Of a stretch of DNA of 11,188 bases, positions 7,376 to 9,829 are shown piece by piece. The notes beneath the pieces are model-generated. The model made no database searches, was not told the DNA's origin, and worked only from the letters and a program-made list of their open reading frames with translations. The stretch's first letter is position 1, and each line of letters starts with the position of its first letter. A program made the position numbers and the translations under genes. Source of the stretch: Xanthobacteraceae bacterium (GTDB lineage Bacteria > Pseudomonadota > Alphaproteobacteria > Rhizobiales > Xanthobacteraceae); NCBI GenBank assembly GCA_030037185.1, contig JASHRR010000308.1, forward strand, positions 1-11,188. Reading direction: 5' to 3'.

Positions 7376-9829
7376 ATGCCCGATCTCCTGTTCGAGCTCT
7401 TCTCGGAGGAAATCCCGGCCCGCATGCAGGCGCGGGCGGCAGAGGATTTGTGCAGAATGGTGACGGACCGGCTGATGGATGCCGGGCTCGTCTACGAGGG
7501 CGCGACCGCCTTCGCGACGCCGCGGCGGCTGGCATTGGCCGTGCAAGGTATTCCGGCGCGCCAGCCTGATCTCAAAGAGGAAAAGAAGGGTCCGCGGGTC
7601 GGTGCGCCCGAGGTGGCGGTGCAGGGTTTTCTCAAGAGCGCAGGGCTTGGCTCGATCGCGGAGGCGACGATCCAGAAGGACCCCAAGAAGGGCGATTTCT
7701 ACGTGGCCCTGGTCGAGAAGCCGGGGCGTCCCGCCATCGATGTGCTCGCCGAAATCCTGCCTGTGGTGATCCGCACCTTTCCGTGGCCGAAATCGATGCG
7801 CTGGGGCGAGCGGTCGTCCCGTTCCGGCGCGCTTGCATGGGTCCGTCCGCTGCACTCGATCATCGCGACGTTCGGGCCGGAAACCGAGACCCCGGATATC
7901 GTGCCGTTCGTGGTCGACGGCGTTGCGGCCGGCAGCACCACGCGCGGGCACAGATTCCTGGCGCCGGGCGTCATCCATGCCCGGCACTTCGCCGATTACG
8001 CCGCAAAGCTCGAACGCGCCAAAGTGGTGCTCGCCCCGGCACGGCGCCGGGAGATCATTCTCACCGACGCCAAGCACCTTGCCTTCGCCCAGGGCTTCGA
8101 ACTGGTCGAAGATGAGGCGCTGCTCGACGAGGTCACAGGCCTGGTGGAATGGCCCGTGGTGCTGATGGGCTCATTCGATGAAGAGTTCCTGCGCCTGCCG
8201 CCGGAGGTGATCCGCACCACGATCCGGGTCAACCAGAAGTGCTTCGTCGTGCGCGTCGCTCACCCTCCCCTGCAGAGGGAGGGTCGAACGGCCGAAGGCA
8301 GGTCACCCCCAGCCGGCCGGCTGCCGCGGGACGACCTCCCCCCTGCAAGGACAGGTGAAGAGAGCGGCGCAGGAGGAGGTGGCGGCAGAGCAGATGAAGG
8401 CAGCCTCGCCAACAAGTTCATCCTCGTCGCCAACACTGAAGCAACGGACGGCGGCGGCGCCATCGTCGCGGGCAATGAGCGCGTCATACGGGCGAGGCTC
8501 GCCGATGCGAAATTCTTCTACGAGACCGATCTCAGGCACTGGCGCGACGTGCCGCTCGACGCGCGGCTGGAGAAGTTCAAGGGCATCGTGTTCCACGAAA
8601 AGCTCGGCACGCAATGGGAGCGGATCGCGCGAATCGAGCGGCTCGCCGCAGCGCTTGCGCCGCTGGTCGGCGCCGACCTGGAAGAGACGAAGCGCGCGGC
8701 ACGGCTCGCCAAGGTCGACCTCATGACCGACATGGTGGGCGAATTTCCCGAGTTGCAGGGGCTGATGGGGAAATACTACGCGCGGGCCGTTGGCGAGGAC
8801 GAGAGCGTGGCGGCGGCCTGCGAGGAGCATTACAAGCCGCTGGGGCCGAGCGATCGCGTGCCGACAAATCCGGTGTCGGTCGCGGTGGCCTTGGCCGACA
8901 AGATCGATACGCTGGTCGGATTTTGGGCTATCGGCGAGAAGCCGACAGGGAGCAAGGACCCGTATGCTTTGCGACGGGCAGCATTGGGGACGATACGAAT
9001 CGTGTTGGAGACGCGGCAGCGTCTGCGGCTTGTACGGGCGATCGGTCTCGCGGCGGCCGCGGCCTTCGGTGTCGCCGCAATGGCTCAAGCAGCCGAAGGC
9101 TTGAGAGGGATCGCTCGCGCTTTTAATGATTGCTTGCTGCGAGACGGCCTGATCAGCGAACCTTCGACGACGGTACCGGCTGAGGCAACTATTTTCGCAC
9201 AGCTGATACGCAAGGGCATTGAGGCCGGGTGGAGTGATATCGTTCGAAATGATTTTGACGGACAGCGGCTGGCGCAGCTGGAGCGGTTTTTTAAGCCGTT
9301 GGTTGCCGACCTCCTCGCCTTCTTCGCCGACCGCCTCAAAGTCCAACTCCGCGAGCAGGGAGCGCGCCACGATCTGGTCGACGCCGTGTTCGCCCTCGAA
9401 GGGCAGGACGATCTCCTTCTCATCGTCCGCCGCGTCGAAGCGCTCGGCAAATTCCTCGACTCCGAGGACGGGAAGAATCTGCTCGCCGGCTATAAGCGTG
9501 CCACCAACATCATCCGTATCGAGGAAAGGCGTGACAAAACCGAATACACCGGCGAGCCGTCAGCCGCACTCTACCGCCAGGCCGAGGAATGGGAACTGGC
9601 GCGCGCCATTGATACAGCGGCCGCCGAAGCATCCGCAGCGGTGGCCCGCGAGGGCTTTGCGGCCGCCATGAGCGCCATGGCGAAGCTGCGCCCGCATGTC
9701 GACGCCTATTTCGAGAAGGTGACGGTCAATGTCGAGGATGCACCGGTGCGGGCGAACCGGCTCAAGCTCCTCAACCGGATCCGCGTCGCCACGCGCACGG
9801 TCGCGGATTTTTCCAAGATCGAGGGATAG
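7376..9829 (+). CDS. glyS: Glycyl-tRNA synthetase, beta subunit, with internal insertions
   Basis: The 817-residue beta subunit of the alpha2beta2 glycyl-tRNA synthetase, needed for tRNA-Gly binding and charging. Family landmarks are the N-terminal LLFELFSEEIPARMQ, the block around RTTIRVNQKCFVV (to residue 292), NKFILVANTEATDGG, GNERVIRARLADAKFFYETD, KVDLMTDMVGEFPELQGLMGKYYA, NPVSVAVALADKIDTLVGFWAIGEKPTGSKDPYALRRAALG, and a C-terminal part with RHDLVDAVF (H665, D666). It is clearly longer than the roughly 690-residue E. coli protein. Two places explain most of the excess: residues about 294-345, which contain a palindromic repeat translated in frame, and residues about 545-644, a poorly conserved stretch with relaxed codon use before DLLAFFADRLKVQL. 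The frame stays open through both. The start at ATG 7376 fits the family N-terminus and has a ribosome binding site. It is the last gene of the glyQ operon. Confidence 0.96.
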   Translation: MPDLLFELFSEEIPARMQARAAEDLCRMVTDRLMDAGLVYEGATAFATPRRLALAVQGIPARQPDLKEEKKGPRVGAPEVAVQGFLKSAGLGSIAEATIQKDPKKGDFYVALVEKPGRPAIDVLAEILPVVIRTFPWPKSMRWGERSSRSGALAWVRPLHSIIATFGPETETPDIVPFVVDGVAAGSTTRGHRFLAPGVIHARHFADYAAKLERAKVVLAPARRREIILTDAKHLAFAQGFELVEDEALLDEVTGLVEWPVVLMGSFDEEFLRLPPEVIRTTIRVNQKCFVVRVAHPPLQREGRTAEGRSPPAGRLPRDDLPPARTGEESGAGGGGGRADEGSLANKFILVANTEATDGGGAIVAGNERVIRARLADAKFFYETDLRHWRDVPLDARLEKFKGIVFHEKLGTQWERIARIERLAAALAPLVGADLEETKRAARLAKVDLMTDMVGEFPELQGLMGKYYARAVGEDESVAAACEEHYKPLGPSDRVPTNPVSVAVALADKIDTLVGFWAIGEKPTGSKDPYALRRAALGTIRIVLETRQRLRLVRAIGLAAAAAFGVAAMAQAAEGLRGIARAFNDCLLRDGLISEPSTTVPAEATIFAQLIRKGIEAGWSDIVRNDFDGQRLAQLERFFKPLVADLLAFFADRLKVQLREQGARHDLVDAVFALEGQDDLLLIVRRVEALGKFLDSEDGKNLLAGYKRATNIIRIEERRDKTEYTGEPSAALYRQAEEWELARAIDTAAAEASAAVAREGFAAAMSAMAKLRPHVDAYFEKVTVNVEDAPVRANRLKLLNRIRVATRTVADFSKIEG
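8260..8358. repeat. Palindromic repetitive element inserted in frame within glyS
   Basis: A 99-base element (33 codons). Its outer arms, 8260-8286 and 8332-8358, are imperfect inverted repeats of each other (19 of 27 positions match). Within the left arm, ACCCTCCC (8262-8269) and GGGAGGGT (8277-8284) form a perfect 8-base stem. The centre holds a 14-base perfect palindrome, CAGCCGGCCGGCTG (8310-8323). It interrupts glyS between the conserved QKCFVVR block and NKFILVAN and reads through in frame as a Pro/Arg/Gly-rich segment. About 10 further Gly-rich codons follow before the native-looking DEGSLANKF. A shortened relative lies at 7324-7365. Confidence 0.75.

Follow-up and report, generated by a model that had tools for sequence, protein, structure and literature searches.

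The closest described counterparts of the locus studied here are the Rickettsia palindromic elements (RPE; Ogata et al. 2000, 2002), which, in the parts of PMC10969869 and PMC3767692 that summarise them, are palindromic, about 100–150 bp long and inserted in frame in unrelated housekeeping genes. The RPE-bearing genes shown in PMC3767692 include one for a tRNA synthetase, PheT, and a comparable process is regarded as conceivable in other prokaryotes (PMC10969869). The REP sequences of the CGTC and GTAG super-families, in the main text of PMC3733652, are short hairpins, often paired, whose hosts include Bradyrhizobium and Rhodopseudomonas; intragenic REPs are described in uvrA, a UvrD/REP helicase and tRNA synthetases of X. 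oryzae, E. litoralis and S. alaskensis, and in recB a REP occupies nearly the same site in two Xanthomonas. The same text suggests flexible linkers or loops as the reason why REP insertions may be neutral, and argues too that it may be no accident to find REPs in repair genes. Br-REP1 and Br-REP2 of Bradyrhizobium are palindromic and were counted in intergenic regions (PMC5082802, in its account of these repeats).

In-frame palindromic repeats in housekeeping genes are a kind already known, from Rickettsia and from REPs elsewhere, and the parallel extends beyond Rickettsia to the intragenic REPs described in several bacteria, some of them in tRNA synthetase genes (PMC3733652, main text). The additions made here lie in the setting, in the classes of repeat involved and in the way one loop of GlyS is used again and again. 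The word glycyl does not occur in the main text of PMC3733652, and no text on inserts or palindromic repeats in GlyS was found in the literature searched, outside which most subscription journals lie; within that literature, it seems to be a new observation that a single loop of GlyS in Hyphomicrobiales has repeatedly taken up repeats of several classes.

The repeat in the window glyS

The window is a stretch of 11,188 nt from a Xanthobacteraceae bacterium (contig JASHRR010000308.1), for which a sequence-only reading had proposed a Rickettsia-like palindromic repeat inserted in frame in glyS. Relatives with an empty site, repeats in related genomes and the continuity of the frame support this proposal, the repeat sequences presumably being other ones. 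We hold it very probable that a dispersed REP-like two-hairpin repeat was inserted in frame in glyS, in a loop that is recurrently hit, and has been eroding since. The features of the window are as follows.

270–1622: SbcD-like nuclease
1619–5179: SMC-like ATPase
6007–6936, forward strand: glyQ, glycine--tRNA ligase alpha subunit (context)
6971–7222: CDGSH protein
7348–7363, reverse strand: exact 16-nt inverted copy of 8260–8275, upstream of glyS
7376–9829, forward strand: glyS, glycine--tRNA ligase beta subunit, 817 aa (TIGR00211, 725.8 bits; PF02092)
8252–8404, forward strand: whole extra segment, between CFVV and LANKF, 51 residues
8260–8286, forward strand: first half element, TCACCCTCCC-loop-GGGAGGGTCG, 8-bp stem (by comparison with the 156 half elements collected)
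8310–8323, no strand: central 14-nt perfect palindrome between both half elements
8330–8358, reverse strand: second half element, inverted, reading TCACCTGTCC...GGGGGGAGGTCGTC on the reverse strand, degraded stem (sequence; matches to query positions 47–108)
8359–8404, forward strand: Gly-rich tail, whose length differs among the 12 closest relatives

The 99 nt at 8260–8358 are stop-free in the glyS frame, as had been claimed, and the details proposed for them are found in the DNA: a perfect 8-bp stem (8262–8269/8277–8284, with a 7-nt loop), the perfect 14-nt palindrome CAGCCGGCCGGCTG at 8310–8323, and inverted arms, both element ends pairing in the predicted DNA and RNA folds. The extra segment, taken in that reading as about 33 residues plus a Gly-rich linker, does hold an in-frame repeat and is larger than supposed, 153 nt (8252–8404) with the Gly-rich tail included, against 18–21 nt at the empty loci compared; the repeat-encoded part corresponds to GlyS residues about 293–343. 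Upstream of the gene, 7325–7366 resembles a single half element by eye.

When the 99 nt were shuffled 2000 times with dinucleotides preserved, a palindrome of at least 14 nt arose in 24 shuffles and a stem of at least 8 bp in 104; the two together were rare, arising in 2. The folding energy of the element beats chance only modestly, with z = -1.90 for DNA (7 of 200 shuffles equally good) and z = -1.83 for RNA (11 of 200), and hairpin content taken alone is suggestive of a repeat. The absence of stops is weak evidence, because three of the six reading frames of the element are open. DNA features alone are insufficient to carry the claim of a palindromic repeat, and the reading is firm because copies of the element occur in the genomes of relatives: the DNA in the window glyS is a diverged two-hairpin palindromic repeat.

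The last gene of the window is ppdK, of which only the start is present. Its frame opens with a long N-terminal stretch in which a repeat-like phrase, PPQAGEGKS...PALPQGRA, stands directly ahead of the conserved part (10191–10480); the true start may lie further downstream, and another repeat may be present at 10191–10480.

Half elements compared with described families

With the pattern ACC(C/T)(C/T)(C/T)CCC-loop-GGG(A/G)(A/G)(A/G)GGT, 156 half elements were collected, class D inserts (see below) and repeats of the second GlyS site being left out of the counts. Most have TTC before and CG after them, or the reverse, and the usual insert consists of two half elements in inverted order with CG inward (by eye). 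CG follows 75 of the 156; among the following tetranucleotides, GAAG (the other end read in reverse) occurs 32 times, CGGC 25, CGCC 15 and CGTC once, and GTAG is absent from the 25 commonest. Of the two halves in the window, one has CGAA after it and the other CGTC, and class D inserts look closer to CGTC by eye.

REPs of the CGTC type, as described in the main text of PMC3733652, carry a terminal CGTC (or TGTC/CCTC) by the stem, have a stem of 8–9 bp with A-T as first and second pair, and form dimers with the tags mostly outside (HH). Here, CGTC follows one half element of the 156 and one of the two halves in the window, the 8-bp stem has A-T and then C-G (ACCC...GGGT), and the two inverted halves have CG inward (by eye). 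The terminal GTAG by the stem, characteristic of the GTAG type, is not among the 25 commonest tetranucleotides that follow our half elements. Br-REPs come from the same bacterial order as our inserts, but the Br-REP1 consensus, CCGGAATCTCGAGATTCCGG, differs, and the account of these repeats in PMC5082802 mentions no in-gene copies, which are present here. Compared with the RPE, our inserts are alike in the length of the palindromic repeat (99 nt in the window and 111–138 nt in the insert cores of four other loci), in their in-frame position inside pre-existing genes and, going by the RPE summaries cited above, in the closeness of different groups within one gene; the hosts, however, are Hyphomicrobiales (those known by name include Nitrobacter, Afipia and Methylocystis) instead of Rickettsia and Wolbachia, and here several classes occupy one GlyS loop.

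The REP/BIME sequences of E. coli (PMC3733652, main text) are paired inverted hairpins dispersed in the genome, as here, but they have the RAYT transposase, whereas the Y1_Tnp domain (PF01797) was found in only 5 of our 15 insert-bearing genomes, some of which are drafts (G001, G002, G003, G102 and G005 have it; fragments in one). It was not found in the ten others, which include G216 and G055, whose insert matches lie on one megabase contig each. RAYT as a universal mover is unsupported by this distribution.

Filled and empty loops among relatives

When GlyS of relatives was aligned, as the sequence-only reading had suggested, the loop varied in length and some relatives had no insert, in place of one segment of equal length in all. 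The distance from CFVV to NKFILVANT ranged from 7 to 88 aa in the 106 parsed of the 120 best protein relatives. Across 198 GlyS rows, 69 have a repeat-type insert, 6 another expansion and 123 a short turn of 5–11 residues, mostly 5–7 (typically VVRGPDGNLANRF or VVNDPKTGKLANKF), against 51 in the window. GlyS was found in 371 of the 391 genomes of one family; of 15 listed matches running through the site, at least 14 (L111–L119, L121–L125) have repeat-type inserts by pattern, a count that is a floor and not a rate, and L120 is a short expansion of another kind.

By peptide pattern, the inserts were sorted into six classes, A–F, which are not six proven DNA families, because they are partly different frames of related DNA. 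The inserts include the peptides HPPLEGEGRSRSERGGV or close to it (L024, L046), PPPLRGRVGEGG (L016, L017, L116), SPHDSGGEG (L111, L117), SPLPAGERS (L119), HPRASR...HPEAPPQ (L020), HPEEARSAVSKDG (L124) and LSPQGGEE (L018). The insert junctions vary in position within the turn; in 12 groups of sites, 11 of them with an empty member, no fixed target site or target duplication was seen by eye.

In the structure model, whose mean pLDDT is 58.9, residues 298–340 have low confidence and lie between strands 290–294 and 344–352, which places the extra segment in a turn between two predicted beta strands. The turn is equally short in E. coli GlyS (7yse), in which the counterparts of window residues 292 and 339 are residues 290 and 292.

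Gains, losses and decay

A quick maximum-likelihood tree was built from the 198 GlyS rows (643 columns, variable sites removed), without L047, L049, L050, L051, L053, L125 and L141–L144, which have no usable full GlyS, and L036, L038, L041 and L048, which have no parsable site; L049, L053 and L125 carry inserts, though off the tree. Repeat-type against no insert requires at least 19 changes, 12 of them forced by starred (well-supported) branches, and the 79 genome rows alone give 12 changes. Filled and empty sisters stand on starred forks in L016/L015, L046/L002 (two Nitrobacter), L121/L044 and L020/L022. Separate insertions are the best reading of most changes, given that the lineages have different classes and that these match the repeats of the host where tested. 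Some may be losses; gains and losses are not separable by the counts of a quick tree, so that part of the pattern, and most of all that of the large class A group formed by metagenome proteins, may be one old insert, repeatedly lost.

Within the clade of the window (13 members, 78 pairs), the segment is present in all members and is 70% identical with 43% gaps; in the rest of the protein, the second variable region left out, identity is 95% and gaps are 0%. The window's copy is old, decaying and common to its clade.

That the GlyS turn is a favoured site of independent capture, used by several classes and sometimes by at least two inserts per gene, with some carriers dependent on or benefiting from the loop, is an extension that we find doubtful, if conceivable; were it true, dispersed palindromes would be recurring raw material from which essential enzymes of free-living bacteria gain new segments. 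It is likewise unlikely, in our view, that the insert is retained for a function, as an mRNA hairpin or flexible loop that tunes the amount or activity of GlyS and was selected independently in several lineages. The many gains or losses at one loop, the double inserts in some GlyS and the presence of the segment throughout the window clade would agree with such a role, but within that clade neither its sequence nor its length is conserved, 123 of the 198 rows do without it, unrelated genes are hit as well and several repeat classes serve.

Copies dispersed in genomes

The window element (8255–8362) was matched at E <= 0.01 in seven of the ten related genomes searched, with 65 matches in G058, 30 in G002, 9 in G003, 5 in G001, 4 in G042 and one each in G017 and G152; there was no match at this threshold in G137, G105 and G084. 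The best matches reached 82–88% over 43–60 nt, and 40 first-look candidates were scored in eight of the ten genomes. Four other inserts were used as DNA queries at E <= 0.001, the counts including the insert itself, and each was found repeatedly in its own genome: L024 in G002 (50 matches, the best other place 82% over about 125 nt), L116 in G216 (25), L020 in G005 (51, and 6 in G023) and L119 in G055 (39). The L024 insert had no match at this threshold in G007 and G008. The L116 insert was matched in eight further genomes, all insert-bearing (G276 23, G004 30, G292 20, G143 5, G293 34, G194 27, G102 31, G038 8). Places are fewer than match counts, because a palindromic copy is often matched on both of its strands, and in 19 of the 30 genome searches the counts are lower bounds, because 40 first-look candidates were scored there. 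Multi-copy status in the own genome refers to the four inserts tested; for the window's element, the copies are those in related genomes.

These copies bear on whether the loop could be an ordinary lineage-specific low-complexity expansion in GC-rich genomes, palindromic only in appearance. The segment is indeed Gly/Pro/Ala-rich and poorly conserved, its fold z is only about -1.9, and six expanded loops of the 198 rows, out of 75 expanded in all, match no repeat class (L004, L052, L150, L151, P0044 and P0074, although P0044 resembles a collapsed class A by eye). A low-complexity origin would, however, hardly yield nucleotide-level copies at many places of the same or related genomes, nor a near-identical second copy within one glyS (93% over 116 nt in L016/L114; 89% over 102 nt in L116), and the own-genome searches speak against it for the four inserts so tested; we judge it quite improbable.

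Assembly at the site

The GlyS frames of two Afipia assemblies (L049/L141 and L053/L144) are in conflict, and the insert of one of them contains a run of N; four contigs either stop at the site or start shortly behind it (L051/L142 of G024, L143 of G107, L047 and one of G168). Both probably reflect assembly trouble at a palindrome. A split-gene reading of G239 and G191 was dropped; in both, the frames disagree inside the insert, with an N run in one. Such trouble could suggest that the inserts themselves are artefacts of assembly or sequencing at repeats, but in-frame inserts sit within megabase contigs in G216 and G055 and occur in the named isolates Nitrobacter sp. Nb-311A and Afipia sp. OHSU_II-C1, and the loop is longer than 11 aa in 57 of 119 database proteins counted, which leaves an artefact extremely unlikely.

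Byp elements and introns are precedents for ribosome skipping and removal, and two Afipia inserts are out of a single frame as assembled, but that the segment is excised post-transcriptionally or bypassed by the ribosome is scarcely credible, given that the other parsed inserts are stop-free and in frame and that an Rfam scan of the window at the gathering threshold matched no RNA family.

Inserts in other genes

We took 100 loci around repeat copies, by similarity and not at random, and re-located the copy in 98. With copies within 250 bp merged, they represent 85 places: 11 in glyS, 15 in other proteins and 59 intergenic or unresolved. Long frames ran across repeats in 52 cases, and a Pfam scan of 30 of these gave matches in 20; the repeat lay inside or between domains in 15, listed here, with L110, L193, L207, L209 and L175 left out as unclear.

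IleS: L093, L173
LeuS: L183
UvrA: L108, L177
Hydantoinase A: L087, L184
PcrA/UvrD: L220 (below NCBIfam cut-offs)
RlmN: L188
ThiC: L172
HrpB: L186
PDH E2: L230
Indolepyruvate-oxidoreductase-like protein: L191
Acyl-CoA synthetase-like protein: L096
Histidine kinase: L083

In IleS, hydantoinase A and UvrA, the repeat occupies nearly the same position in two genomes each, the repeats having been found with different queries. IleS was found in 27 of the 29 genomes of the genus of G276, and its turn exceeded 15 aa in 5 of the 30 loci read (three of which are second rows of one gene): a full repeat in L255, a collapsed single hairpin in L257 and three other expansions. The KPFHLPS retained in IleS of L281 is perhaps the last trace of a repeat, and the IleS-turn series resembles the decay in the GlyS clade of the window.

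Proposed history and its meaning

On the account that we favour, a dispersed REP-like element of two inverted hairpins (about 100–140 bp) entered glyS in an ancestor of the window clade, in the beta-hairpin turn; with the frame kept, no stop introduced and a turn tolerant of extra residues, GlyS still worked, and the repeat became a disordered, Pro/Gly-rich loop of an essential enzyme, presumably translated with it. In Hyphomicrobiales, glyS appears to have been entered repeatedly, at this loop and also at one or perhaps two more, by different repeat classes of the host genomes, the inserts afterwards shrinking by in-frame deletions. The repeats are most likely non-autonomous mobile palindromes, moved presumably by an enzyme, that land anywhere; most landings in genes would be purged, while those in frame within a tolerant loop would survive, as nearly neutral disordered protein.

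Dispersed repeat DNA would on this account have been turned repeatedly into protein sequence at one GlyS loop in related bacteria. This amounts to a replicated natural experiment, with one loop of an essential enzyme, many insertions at different stages of decay, empty sisters and some cultured carriers, and whether selfish palindromes make functional protein segments or are merely tolerated becomes directly testable outside Rickettsia. It is advisable to mask the insert residues when phylogenies are built or structures predicted.

Further observations

A second in-frame palindromic or repeat-type insert follows RHDLVDAVFA in GlyS of L016/L114, L116, L046, L125 and L008; in L008, this second site is filled and the first one is empty. 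Some GlyS perhaps have a third insert, at another loop. A second variable region (window 8999–9310, GlyS residues about 542–645) differs wildly among close relatives and is mostly without a recognised repeat signature; the spacing from RRAAL to KVQLREQG was 46 to 194 residues in 120 proteins (P0001–P0120). In G005, two repeat copies (L207, L209) lie in long frames with MmeI/Eco57I-type methylase domains.

Palindromes are DNA acted on by SbcCD-type nucleases. In the window, the SbcD-like nuclease overlaps the large SMC-like ATPase (together 270–5179), near glyQS, and the two are a candidate repair pair.
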